Shown one piece after another: positions 25,846-63,461 of a stretch of DNA of 64,000 nucleotides. Made by a program: the position numbers and the translations under genes. The stretch spans positions 1 through 64,000 of the forward strand of contig JANCYW010000008.1 of NCBI GenBank assembly GCA_026184775.1, read 5' to 3'. The notes beneath the pieces were generated by a model. The model was not told the origin of the DNA, did not search any database, and saw only the letters and a program-made list of their open reading frames with translations. Within the stretch, counting starts at the first letter, position 1, and every line of letters starts with the position of its first letter. The stretch comes from Cyanidium caldarium (lineage: Eukaryota > Rhodophyta > Bangiophyceae > Cyanidiales > Cyanidiaceae).

Positions 25846-26616
25846 CTCGTCAGTGTGAGGGAGTGCAGGTGCGGCGGGAAATGAGCACGGTTCTCTGTTG
25901 CCATTCTCAACGCGTCGAAGCGGTAACGAACTGGGCTGAGAGGCTTGGTAGCTTCTCATCTGCTCTAATTTTGGAACGATTCTCTTTCGCGTGACTCTTG
26001 GACACCCGCTTGGCCAAGTCGATGGCTGTCGTGCGTGCGTGAATGCACGGAGTGCGGCAGACGCCACAATCCGATCGCATCGCGTGACGTTCCAGAGCGG
26101 GCTGGCGGAGGTGAAGCGGCACGCGCCCGCACTTTCGGCCGAACCCGACAGAGAAGGCACGCCTATGGCGCGCTCCGGTGCAGTGCCGGGGACCTTGCAC
26201 GGGTCGGCAGTGGCTGTCGATCTCCACACGCAGTCAGTTGGGAGTGCGTCATGTGTCCGGAAATGTGTTGCGACGACGGGCACAAGACTGCCATACAACA
26301 TCCGATAGGTTGATGCACCGCAGTGATCGATGCTGCAGATAAAAGTATCACCGACATCCACACGTCCCGTTGCATTCCCGGGTGTCTCGCTTTGCGCGGC
26401 GCCGACGGACACGGGTCTGGCCCGTCCGTCCGAACGCATCGCCCGCCTGGGACGCTCGCGTTTCCCGCCTCTCTCTCTCAAACACCTCATCAGCGCGCGC
26501 CTGGGGCAGAATCTGCCTTACCCACATCACTGCAAGCACCTCGCACCACCTCAGGGCCACTCCTATCGCACCTGCATCCCGCACCCTCTCATCTCGGCCT
26601 CTCGGCCTTTTGCAGC
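25846..26616. other. Divergent upstream region of the peroxiredoxin-like gene and SQD1
   Basis: Roughly 770 bp, one of the longest gene-free gaps outside the subtelomere. It holds GATAAAAGTATCA at about 26337 on the plus strand, which could serve as an AT-rich promoter element for SQD1, and pyrimidine-rich leader sequence from about 26467. Frames are open in several phases but I see no domain. Confidence 0.5.
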
Positions 26617-28161
26617 ATGCCTCTCCCCTTCTCCTTCATCCCAGCACTGCTCCCTCGCGGCCGTACCACCCGCCCCACCCACGCCTCCCTCACCCCGCAT
26701 CACCCTCGCCATGCCACACCCTCCTTCACCCTACCTCAGCGCCGTCGCCACCACTTCTTCAAGCCTCTCCGCATGCTCCACGCGGACAGCAACGCTCCCC
26801 GCTCCTCCCCCATATCCGGCAAGACCGTCTTCGTGCTGGGCGGCGACGGCTTCTGCGGCTGGCCGACGGCGCTGCACTTGAGCGAGATCGGGTACGATGT
26901 GGTCATCGTGGACAACTTGTCGCGGCGCAAGATCGACGTCGAACTCGAGTGCGAGTCGTTGACGCCTATCGCGCCCATCACCGAGCGCCTGCGGGTGTGG
27001 AACACGCTCAGCGGTGGACGGCTGATCCGCTTCGAATACCTAGACGTGGCGCACGAGTACGGCCAGCTGTTGGAGCTGATCAAGCGCGAGCGCCCGGTGG
27101 CTGTTGTGCATTTCGCCGAGCAGCGCGCCGCGCCCTACAGCATGAAGGGCTCGCGACAAAAGCGCTACACCATCGACAACAACGTCAACGGCACCATGAG
27201 CGTGCTGACGGCGGTAGCCGAGTCCGAGCTCGATGTACACGTGGTGCATCTGGGCACCATGGGCGTGTATGGCTACGGCAGCAGCGGTGGGCGCATCCCC
27301 GAAGGCTACATCGACGTGGTGCTGCCGTCCGGCGAGCGCCAGTCCATCCTGCACCCGGCCTATCCGGGCAGCGTGTATCACGCGTCCAAGTGTCTGGACG
27401 CGCTGCTTTTCCAGTTTTTCGCCCGCAACGACGGACTGCGCATCACCGACTTGCACCAAGGCGTGGTGTGGGGCACGTTCACCGACAACACCATGCGGCA
27501 CGAGCTGCTGATGAACCGGTACGATTACGACTCGGACTACGGCACGGTGCTGAACCGCTTCCTGATGCAGGCGGCGAGCGACCTGCCGCTGACGGTGTAC
27601 GGGACCGGCGGGCAGACGCGCGCCTTTATCCACATCCGCGACACCTGCAAGTGCATCGCACTGGCGCTGGCCAACCCGCCGCAGCCGGGCGATCGGGTGA
27701 AGATCTACAACCAGGTGGCGGAGACGCACCGGGTGCGCGACTTGGCGGCGCTGGTGGCGCGCAAGACCGGTGCGCGCGTCGATCACGTGAACAACCCGCG
27801 CCAGGAGGCGGCCGAGAACGAACTCGACGTGAGCAATCAGAACTTTCGGTCGCTCGGCTGGGCTCCGGTCACGCTGGAGGAGACGTTGTTGGATGAGGTG
27901 GTGGGCGTGGCCGAGCGGTATCGCCACCGGATCGACGTGAACAAGATCATGCCGAGCAGCTTTTGGAACAAGCGGCGGGCGGCCGAATGTCGGGCGGCGC
28001 CGGTGCTGAACTCCAACGGGCAAGCGGTGACGGGCAGTGACGGTGGCGGCGGTGATGCGGACGGCGCGGCGATCGATTGGCAAGAGCGGCTGATGCAGCA
28101 GCTCGCCGGCGGCGACGCGCACAAACTGGAGCGCGTGCGGGCCGCACTGCGTGGTGAATGA
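26617..28161 (+). CDS. SQD1: UDP-sulfoquinovose synthase
   Basis: SQD1 makes UDP-sulfoquinovose from UDP-glucose and sulfite, the head group of the plastid sulfolipid SQDG. The protein is 514 residues. A transit-like N-terminus of about 65 residues rich in Pro, His, Arg and Ser precedes an NAD-binding Rossmann start, GGDGFCG (75-81). Family blocks follow: DNLSRRKIDVELE, VHFAEQRAAPYSM, HLGTMGVYGYG, HPAYPGSVYHASK with the catalytic Tyr-x-x-x-Lys, HQGVVWG, GTVLNRFLMQAASDLPLTVY and NNPRQEAAENE. The C-terminal end is slightly longer than usual, with a Gly/Asp-rich linker. Sulfite is also the substrate of the sulfite reductase at 61254-63461, so the window carries both routes that use it. Confidence 0.97.
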   Translation: MPLPFSFIPALLPRGRTTRPTHASLTPHHPRHATPSFTLPQRRRHHFFKPLRMLHADSNAPRSSPISGKTVFVLGGDGFCGWPTALHLSEIGYDVVIVDNLSRRKIDVELECESLTPIAPITERLRVWNTLSGGRLIRFEYLDVAHEYGQLLELIKRERPVAVVHFAEQRAAPYSMKGSRQKRYTIDNNVNGTMSVLTAVAESELDVHVVHLGTMGVYGYGSSGGRIPEGYIDVVLPSGERQSILHPAYPGSVYHASKCLDALLFQFFARNDGLRITDLHQGVVWGTFTDNTMRHELLMNRYDYDSDYGTVLNRFLMQAASDLPLTVYGTGGQTRAFIHIRDTCKCIALALANPPQPGDRVKIYNQVAETHRVRDLAALVARKTGARVDHVNNPRQEAAENELDVSNQNFRSLGWAPVTLEETLLDEVVGVAERYRHRIDVNKIMPSSFWNKRRAAECRAAPVLNSNGQAVTGSDGGGGDADGAAIDWQERLMQQLAGGDAHKLERVRAALRGE

Positions 28162-61253: not shown

Positions 61254-63461
61254 TCACGGCTCCGGAGAAGGCGGTGCCTGCCCGTCGCTGGTATTCTGCA
61301 TGATATGCTCCATCTCCGGGGACTTGAAAAAGTCCTCCAGCACCGCATTCACCAGCGCACTGACGGGCACGTTGCGCGCGTCGGCGGCGAACCTGAGTTT
61401 GGTGTACAGGTCGCGCGACACCGTGATCCGCGGACGCACCGGTGCGCTCTGTGGCGCACTGCTGATACCGTTTCCGCCGACGGCTCTGCGGGCCGAGCGC
61501 ATCTCTGACGGCGTCTGCACCCACTCTTGAATGGCCTGCTTGCCGACGCGCGCGCAAAAGTCACCAAACAGCTCGCGATAGCTGCGGCGTCGCTCTCGGT
61601 ACATGCAGAAGACCGACTCCAGCACCGCATCCAAACGACTGTCCTCGATGCGGTCCTCGTACGGGAACGCGAGGCGGGTCTGGTTCGGCGAGCCGCCCAG
61701 CCATAGCTGGTACGTTCCGTTCGGTCCGCTGCCGACCAGCGCCAGCTCGGCCATGTACGGCCGCGAGCAGCCGTTCGGACAGCCGGTCATACGCATCACC
61801 ATGGAGGTGCTGCGCGGCAGGCCGACCTTGTCCAGCAAACCGCGCACCCGCGACACGTACGAGTGCATGACGCGCTCGGCCTCGGTGATGGCCAGCCCGC
61901 ACAACGGCAGTGCCGGGCACGCCATCGAGGTGCGCTGCAGCGGATCGATCAGGTTGATATCGGTCACCACACCGTACTGCCCCAGCAAGTCGGCCACCGG
62001 CTGACATTGTTTCGCCTCGATGTTGCACAAGACGATATTCTGGTGCGGCGTGACCACCATCGGAAAGCCGTACTCGTCCGCCACGCGCCGCAGCGCCGTC
62101 TTCAAGTCGCCCTGGATGCGGCCGTTCTCGATGTTCAGACCGAGAAAGAAACGTCCGGCGGCGTCCTCGTGCCAGCCGCACCAATCGCGATACTCCCATT
62201 TGGGCAGCGGCTGCCATGGCTGCAGCGCCGCACCGTCGCCCTCCATGTACGACTGTACCAGCTTGCGGAACGCATCGATGCCCATTTTGTGCACCAAATA
62301 CTTGAGGCGGGCATGCGCGCGCACCTCCCGGTCGCCGTGATCGCGCTGCGCAGCCACAATCGCCTTGATGCAGTCCACCAACGACTCGGTGGGGATGAAA
62401 CCAAGCGGGTCCGCCAGACGAGCAAACGTGCTCTCCTTGTTGTGGGTGCGGCCCATGCCGCCACCCACCAGCACGTCGTATCCGCGCAGGTTGCCCTTGT
62501 TGTCGGTGACCACCACCAGGCCGACATCCTGCGTGAACACGTCGATGCTGTTATCGCCGGGCACGGTGACGCCGATCTTGAACTTGCGTGGCATGTACGT
62601 CTCGCCGTAGATCGGCTCCTCCTTGCCCGGGAACACCTGCCCGCGTCCGTTGTCGTGCTCGCGCCACTGCTGTATCTGCTCCAGATCCAGTCCGTGTCGC
62701 CAAAACTCCATGCTGGCCGCCTTCTCGCCATCCAGCCATATCTCCGCGAACGCGCCCGATTGCGGCGCCAGCAACTCGGCCAGCATCCGCGCCGTGAAGC
62801 GCGCGTGCTCGTAAATGGGCGTGTGAATGGGCGCCGGCGTCGCTACCACGTTGCGGTTGATGTCGCCGCATGCGCCCAGCGTGCTGCCGCCCGCGTTCAT
62901 AATGCTGGAGAACACCTGCTTCAGGTCGCCTTTGAGTACGCCGTGCATCTGAAACGTGCCCCGGGTGGTGGCCCGCAGCGTGTGGTTGCCGTATTGCTCT
63001 GACAAGTCGTCCAGCACCTTGTAGAGGCTGACGGGCATTTGGCCGGCGGGCATTTTCAAGCGCAACATGAACTGGTACTTTTTCTGCTCGCCCTTGGTGC
63101 GCCTGTCGCGGTCATCCTGCTGGTAGGTGCCGTGGAACTTGAGCACCTGCACCGCTTCGTTGGTCACGTGCGCCAGGTCGTTGCCCAGTTCTTCCTGGAC
63201 CGGGTGGCGCAGCTGCTGCGAACGCACCTTGATGCCCTCCACCGGCGACAGCTTGCGGGCTGTCCGCGGCTCGGTGGCGGTCATGCGCAGCGTGCCACGC
63301 CGGGAGGGTGCGCGTACGGCATGCGATAGCGCGCTGGCGCCCGGGCACCAAGAAGTGGCCCAGCGGCGGTGTGCAGAACCGCGCGCCGGAAGCGGGCGTC
63401 CGTGGGCGCTCGGCGCTGCCAGAAACGCCCATGGCGCGAAATGCCCATTGGTGCTCTCCAT
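61254..63461 (-). CDS. SIR: Ferredoxin-sulfite reductase with a ribbon-helix-helix-like tail
   Basis: This plastid enzyme reduces sulfite to sulfide with six electrons from ferredoxin, using siroheme and a 4Fe-4S cluster. The protein is 735 residues with a transit-like N-terminus of about 60. Catalytic cysteines are C515 and C521 (MACPALPLC) and C561 and C565 (TGCPNGC), the standard C-X5-C and C-X3-C pairs. Other blocks are TTRGTFQMHGVLKGDLK, MNAGGSTLGACGDINRN, PRKFKIGVTVPGDNSID and FFLGLNIENGRIQG. After the enzyme core comes an unusual tail (about 676-715): ITVSRDLYTKLRF then VPVSALVNAVLEDFF, the beta strand and two helices of a ribbon-helix-helix fold. Plant sulfite reductase is known to bind plastid DNA, so a DNA-binding tail is plausible. 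The family call is certain. Confidence 0.96.
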   Translation of the reverse strand: MESTNGHFAPWAFLAAPSAHGRPLPARGSAHRRWATSWCPGASALSHAVRAPSRRGTLRMTATEPRTARKLSPVEGIKVRSQQLRHPVQEELGNDLAHVTNEAVQVLKFHGTYQQDDRDRRTKGEQKKYQFMLRLKMPAGQMPVSLYKVLDDLSEQYGNHTLRATTRGTFQMHGVLKGDLKQVFSSIMNAGGSTLGACGDINRNVVATPAPIHTPIYEHARFTARMLAELLAPQSGAFAEIWLDGEKAASMEFWRHGLDLEQIQQWREHDNGRGQVFPGKEEPIYGETYMPRKFKIGVTVPGDNSIDVFTQDVGLVVVTDNKGNLRGYDVLVGGGMGRTHNKESTFARLADPLGFIPTESLVDCIKAIVAAQRDHGDREVRAHARLKYLVHKMGIDAFRKLVQSYMEGDGAALQPWQPLPKWEYRDWCGWHEDAAGRFFLGLNIENGRIQGDLKTALRRVADEYGFPMVVTPHQNIVLCNIEAKQCQPVADLLGQYGVVTDINLIDPLQRTSMACPALPLCGLAITEAERVMHSYVSRVRGLLDKVGLPRSTSMVMRMTGCPNGCSRPYMAELALVGSGPNGTYQLWLGGSPNQTRLAFPYEDRIEDSRLDAVLESVFCMYRERRRSYRELFGDFCARVGKQAIQEWVQTPSEMRSARRAVGGNGISSAPQSAPVRPRITVSRDLYTKLRFAADARNVPVSALVNAVLEDFFKSPEMEHIMQNTSDGQAPPSPEP

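Follow-up and report, generated by a model that had tools for sequence, protein, structure and literature searches.

The sulfite reductase (SiR) encoded in the window, by which we mean the whole stretch of 64,000 nucleotides that was analysed, ends in a tail for which profile comparisons show homology with the one that most of the examined cyanobacterial SiRs carry. Sequence families and structural models make a strong case that this tail is a genuine ribbon-helix-helix (RHH) domain, which would be held on the SiR by a flexible linker. As most cyanobacterial SiRs examined carry the same domain, the tail looks inherited and not newly added, and its most likely source is the plastid ancestor. 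Our explanation as a whole, according to which an RHH tail of cyanobacterial origin would pair SiR molecules and provide the enzyme with a DNA-bound state, appears to us moderately probable.

The enzyme and the limits of its tail

The SiR gene is complete and occupies 61254..63461 on the reverse strand, to which all coordinates of this gene refer, as a single open frame from ATG to stop with 735 codons for amino acids. Its catalytic core, residues 65-649 (61515..63269), was delimited by TIGR02042, the NCBIfam model for ferredoxin-dependent sir, and by the structural match to maize SiR. The TIGR02042 match has an E-value of 5.6e-234 and a score of 777.6 bits (cut-off 731.5) and covers positions 3-579 of the 581 positions of the model. 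The best-scoring solved structure by sequence was maize SiR 5h8v, aligned to residues 69-652, and the full-length AlphaFold model of the protein resembles the maize SiR chains 5h92, 5h8y and 5h8v with TM-scores of 0.92-0.93 by target length; at E <= 0.001 this model matched sulfite or nitrite reductase chains only. In an alignment of 40 rows the PRKFK anion site with its two lysines (P291, R292, K293, F294 and K295) and the four siroheme/4Fe-4S cysteines (C515, C521, C561 and C565) are invariant, their roles being presumed to be those of the corresponding residues in E. coli SiR. These family and motif matches identify the gene product as a complete ferredoxin-dependent assimilatory SiR. Residues 1-66 (63264..63461), which lie ahead of the family model and were modelled with pLDDT values below 50, are a probable plastid transit peptide.

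The gene lies in eukaryotic DNA. Positions 1-177 of the window contain 17.6 copies of CCCCCCCATT, a telomere-like array which is followed by tandem repeats and is similar to the telomeric repeat of Cyanidioschyzon merolae, a red alga. The DNA presumably comes from a cyanidialean red alga. Three neighbouring open reading frames (ORFs) were scanned against families: one codes for an F-box/SPOC protein and another for a cyclin-like protein, the latter match staying under the Pfam cut-off, whereas the third had no family. About 33 kb from the SiR gene, at 26323-28161 on the forward strand, an ORF was observed that by its motifs presumably encodes UDP-sulfoquinovose synthase (SQD1), i.e., another sulfite-using step.

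Residues after approximately 650 lie outside the enzyme family model, as the TIGR02042 match stops at residue 649, and the alignment with the 583-residue maize chain 5h8v ends at window residue 652 with only two residues of this chain remaining. The stretch between the family model and the RHH domain comprises residues 650-674, and a flexible linker with pLDDT values below 50 in the full-length model is formed by residues 663-676 (61434..61475). The RHH domain, as delimited by profiles and model, spans residues ~675-714 (61320..61439). Its predicted parts are a strand, R678-I-T-V-S682 (61416..61430), which was recognised in the sequence and starts with the invariant R678, and the two helices A (residues 683-696; 61374..61415) and B (residues 700-712; 61326..61364) of the AlphaFold models. 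An additional C-terminal helix (residues 715-726; 61284..61319) is predicted by the full-length model and lies outside the cyanobacterial tail profile described below, whose match stops at residue 714. The first-pass annotation of this DNA, which had placed a tail after the complete enzyme at 61254-61440, was right in this respect, with the domain proper being confined to 61320-61439.

AlphaFold was run on residues 650-735 alone with three sequences as input and on the full-length protein with 40 sequences. In the tail-only model, tail positions 34-47, 51-64 and 66-76 are helical; the mean pLDDT values are 92, 95 and 90 over positions 31-60, the overall mean is 69.1 and the pTM 0.41. In the full-length model, the core of which is mostly confident, helices recur at residues 683-696, 700-712 and 715-726. 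The strand RITVS is formed in neither of these two monomer models, as would be expected of a sheet built by two chains. Of the originally proposed plan of one strand and two helices, the helices are present in the models and RITVS (residues 678-682) can be read in the sequence, while the strand as a structural element is missing from the monomers. The idea that the tail is simply part of the SiR core and shared by all plastid SiRs, which the first-pass annotation had named as a finding that would speak against its own proposal, was checked and can be ruled out: neither the maize chain nor 33 of the 149 cyanobacterial SiRs have the tail, and a low-confidence linker lies between core and tail.

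Identity, conservation and descent of the tail

Of 386 cyanobacterial genomes surveyed, 187 contained a sequence that matched the SiR strongly (E <= 1e-120). The sample used here consists of 149 of these cyanobacterial SiRs, with 37 of the 187 matching genomes, those with weaker matches, lying outside the sample. A tail profile was built from 38 cyanobacterial tails taken from the alignment after removal of the window row, and it matched 116 of the 149 SiRs (E < 1e-4). As the 38 tails come from among these 116 and the loci L001 and L002, the matches to all of these arise partly by construction, which does not apply to the window. There, the profile scored 30.5 bits on the whole protein and 34.3 bits on residues 650-735 alone. 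The best of 2000 shuffles of these residues reached 9.1 bits, and among all 1013 stop-to-stop frames of the window the SiR tail was the sole significant match (E 1.4e-8, next 3.2). A chance resemblance is ruled out by this combination of a window-free profile, shuffles and frame scan. A count of tails by regular expression (109/149) missed some of those found by the HMM, and the HMM count was used instead.

Among 80 loci kept from a search with the whole protein, the tail profile matched at E < 1e-4 only L001 and L002, both cyanobacterial, and none of the other 78 at this threshold. The SiRs of L001 and L002 align through window residues 714 and 712, respectively, and end in RHRVTLSP.VY.RLKE... 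The 33 tail-less cyanobacterial SiRs are made up of three isolated cases (L120, L129 and L138), four short-ended ones (L148, L149, L150 and L155) and 26 that we term picocyanobacteria-like, a label given from sequence ends and genome sizes. One cyanobacterial SiR (L234 of genome G324) carries its RHH tail 274 residues past the FGDFCxR motif, where the others measured have it within 62. Stand-alone RHH proteins were also noticed in seven of 12 cyanobacterial genomes searched (L283, L285, L286, L287, L288, L289 and L290), as open frames of 128-142 amino acids with a CPxC-like C-terminal part.

The RHH identity of the tail rests on sequence families and on helix spacing, the two confidently predicted helices being spaced as in RHH proteins. 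The matches of the single window tail to RHH models are, taken alone, only suggestive. Three in-frame cuts of it matched Pfam RHH_5 with E-values of 3.6e-4 to 0.0019 and scores of 18.3-20.7 bits (cut-off 26), the match to Pfam CopG_antitoxin was weaker (E 0.042-0.2), and three regulator families of PHROGs, two of them Arc-like, were matched with E-values of 0.0037-0.01. The NCBIfam scan of this tail yielded no family, and a PDB sequence search with it, up to E 10, returned no RHH protein and only four arginine methyltransferase chains (E 0.41-0.59). When tails were scanned singly against Pfam (E <= 0.01), RHH_5 was matched by 15 and RHH_1 by 11 of 39, the best E-value being 3.4e-7. The 17 Pfam families matched by these 39 tails are mostly RHH or antitoxin families; among the exceptions are Pox_VLTF3 and ATP-gua_PtransN, which look like chance matches. 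Six cyanobacterial tails were compared with the Pfam cut-offs: one scored above that of RHH_3, another above those of ParG and HicB and one remained below cut-off, while the other three had no Pfam family at E <= 0.001.

Against the sequences of the PDB, the tail profile matched AvtR (4.6e-5), ORF56 (9.4e-4) and a CopG-family protein (0.0038), followed by 56B, ParG, Mnt, ParD and omega as well as, weakly, the PutA RHH chain 2jxg (E 0.32); unrelated chains, e.g., E8 and k-cTRP5, were also matched. A Foldseek search with the tail model placed CopG first (probability 0.95, TM-score 0.69 by target length). The E-value of this best match was 0.28, i.e., the search gave no match at E <= 0.001, and the 50 matches listed are mostly CopG, Arc, ParG, MatP, CopASO, NikR or antitoxins. 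The assignment of the tail to an Arc/MetJ-type RHH fold, as it had been made at first sight of the sequence, is supported by the profile family and the helix models; it is weakened by the unformed strand in the monomers and by the sub-cut-off match of the single tail.

R678, the residue that starts the strand, is invariant in all 105 distinct cyanobacterial tails. The following positions are V/I/L, mostly S, and V/L/I in cyanobacteria, where the window reads R-I-T-V-S. From CopG/Arc-type structures, we take the position of R678 to be a surface-exposed one on the DNA-contacting strand. The window protein keeps hydrophobic residues at 679, 681, 685, 686, 689, 700, 703, 704, 708, 711 and 712 and retains, besides R678, also Y686, L689 and P699. 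It departs from the other tails at positions 690 (R for the usual K) and 706, where the usual E is missing and replaced by A. When 49 tail-bearing representatives were compared in pairs, median identities of 71% (core), 17% (linker) and 38% (tail) were obtained, and the window has median identities to them of 14% in the linker and 26% in the tail. Between the FGDFCxR motif and the RHH match lie 37 residues in the window and 19-62 in homologues, apart from L234. As the linker varies in both length and identity and the tail is better kept, the latter appears to be a domain of its own that is under constraint and only loosely tethered.

The descent of the enzyme was followed in a tree of 82 rows (the window, the maize chain, 68 cyanobacterial SiRs left after thinning a set of 153 at 82% identity, and 12 of the 76 other loci from the whole-protein search), which was a quick one calculated with LG+G4 and SH-aLRT support. 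The window and maize SiRs fall inside a cyanobacterial crown of 69 rows with 100% SH-aLRT. A tail-less SiR of Gloeobacterales lies outside this crown, and the earliest branches inside it are the tail-less SiRs of L003 and L150. The branch of the window row is long (0.96), the deeper forks of the crown are weakly ordered and maize was flagged as meeting other long rows; judging from these sequences, the placement of window and maize is not fixed beyond their membership of the crown. The tail state needs at least four changes over the 82 rows, a number that alone does not separate gains from losses. The tail would have been gained in cyanobacteria after the Gloeobacter-like split and then carried into algae with the plastid; in the simplest reading, picocyanobacteria-like lineages, a few others and the lineage leading to maize would then have lost it. 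A fusion made in the alga is largely refuted by the occurrence of the same tail on 116 of 149 cyanobacterial SiRs, and the view of the RHH tail as a dedicated algal solution is not supported.

Possible roles of the tail and the palindrome upstream of sir

In RHH proteins two chains intertwine to form a dimer, and the two-stranded sheet that they share is inserted into the major groove of DNA. As the fold is such a dimer, the tail is proposed to pair SiRs, so that two molecules would be joined by it. The paired strands, led by R678, would bind DNA and give SiR a DNA-bound state as it exists for PutA. DNA binding is the likeliest job of the tail, as an invariant arginine starts the strand, and we infer it here by analogy as a plausible property. 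In cyanobacteria, the most likely function by the same analogy would be a PutA-like combination of dimerisation and DNA binding, and SiR would then be a candidate for a regulator or for an enzyme associated with the nucleoid. As the algal gene is nuclear and its product presumably plastid-targeted, the remaining target in the alga would be plastid DNA, and the tail may possibly act there as a nucleoid binder. A tentative extension, which we regard as rather doubtful, is that cyanobacterial SiR might be a PutA-like moonlighting enzyme that binds DNA by means of a C-terminal RHH dimer and passes on sulfite or ferredoxin status to transcription or to the nucleoid, that the plastid ancestor might have brought this trait along and that DNA compaction by land-plant SiR might be its descendant after tail loss.

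Other readings of the tail have to be weighed against this one. With a small but real share of the probability, the RHH tail could serve solely in the dimerisation of SiR or in its docking to a partner, DNA binding being gone. RHH folds are dimers, many of the conserved tail positions carry hydrophobic residues, as suits the core of a dimer, and the window domain is not strongly basic (seven lysines and arginines and four aspartates and glutamates in residues 675-714). A pure clamp would, however, have no obvious need for R678, whose position is on the surface in RHH folds and which is kept in 105 of 105 distinct cyanobacterial tails. It appears unlikely that the algal tail has lost its function and is decaying: what could be read as decay, namely the median identity of 26% to cyanobacterial tails and the changes E706A and K690R, is found in a frame that is still open, with the hydrophobic pattern, R678, Y686, L689 and P699 kept and with two helices that are confidently modelled (pLDDT 90-95 over tail positions 31-60). 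Far less probable again is that SiR and an RHH gene were fused independently and recently in the algal lineage, as the first-pass annotation had implied. The maize chain without a tail would fit such an event, but the same tail sits at the same place in the cyanobacterial SiRs, and the window tail scores 34.3 bits with the cyanobacterial profile, while none of the Pfam RHH models gives it more than 20.7 bits; from these sequence comparisons, a recent fusion is largely refuted. An inherited domain that would both pair SiRs and bind DNA is the reading that we prefer.

A comparison of 8-mers shared upstream of 30 cyanobacterial sir genes led to a palindrome. An element like ATTCCGACCGGATTACCGGGGA was observed upstream of many cyanobacterial sir loci with or without the RHH tail, e.g., L085, mostly 84-103 bases before the chosen sir start (28 bases in L003 and 22 in L155). 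Its core TCCG-N1-3-CGGA occurs within 300 bp upstream of 22 of 118 tail-bearing and three of 35 tail-less cyanobacterial loci, and degenerate forms of it were seen by eye upstream of other sir loci. Nine genomes, all chosen because their sir carried the element or a variant of it, were searched for the exact 12-mer TCCGACCGGATT. It was present in eight of them, in all eight upstream of sir, with two further sites located inside other ORFs, which suggests that the element is sir-specific. In L237 and L242 the 12-mer lies inside the stop-to-stop frame of SiR, ahead of the chosen start codon. Seven element-bearing loci contained no Rfam family at gathering score, and the palindrome was not found in the 64-kb window. 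The element may act as an operator or may form a hairpin in the mRNA (CCGG-ATTA-CCGG). As it also precedes tail-less sir genes (L003, L155 and L120), it cannot be claimed as the operator of the tail, and its occurrence next to such genes speaks against the tail as its sole reader. On the same ground, the element is no proof of autoregulation via an upstream operator.

Comparison with known systems

With CopG and Arc the tail would share the strand-helix-helix plan, CopG being its top structural match, and the RITVS of the window is similar to the strand pattern of CopG, R-x-T-x-S/T. Unlike these stand-alone repressors or antitoxins, the domain is here the tail of a large enzyme. The cyanobacterial ferredoxin-SiRs resemble the window protein both in their core, with a median identity of 53% over the 49 tail-bearing representatives, and in the tail found on 116 of 149 of them, whereas the transit-peptide-like N-terminus and the predicted short third helix are additions of the window protein. 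A literature search, with most subscription journals outside its reach, revealed no paper that joins sulfite reductase and ribbon-helix-helix, and none of the papers found with related terms described a SiR tail in its title or at the start of its abstract.

For the SiR of land plants (DCP68), which belongs to the same enzyme family as the window SiR, a review reports binding and compaction of plastid DNA as well as repression of transcription (PMC4154389). Its passages considered here agree with the first-pass annotation as far as compaction is concerned; that it is brought about by a C-terminal part of the plant enzyme, as had also been claimed, is not stated in them. The same passages mention a maize nucleoid proteome from which SiR was missing (PMC4154389). 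In contrast to the window protein the maize chain lacks the RHH tail, and DNA binding by maize SiR would consequently need other surfaces. According to another source, it has been suggested that nucleoids are condensed by HU in red algae and by SiR in certain angiosperms (PMC2923531), and this suggested role of HU in red algae weakens a simple nucleoid story for the alga. SiR as a plastid DNA-compacting protein has been an oddity; if the cyanobacterial tails bind DNA, the association of this enzyme with DNA may predate plants.

The nearest working precedent is trifunctional (type C) proline utilization A (PutA), likewise a redox enzyme carrying an RHH domain. In PutA the RHH domain anchors the dimer and binds DNA, and the protein moonlights as an autogenous repressor of its own regulon (PMC5293562). 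The two cases differ in that the RHH domain of PutA is N-terminal and sits on a flavoenzyme, whereas that of SiR is C-terminal and sits on a siroheme/4Fe-4S enzyme for which DNA binding is deduced by analogy. If our explanation is true, SiR would be another redox enzyme beside PutA that carries its own RHH domain.
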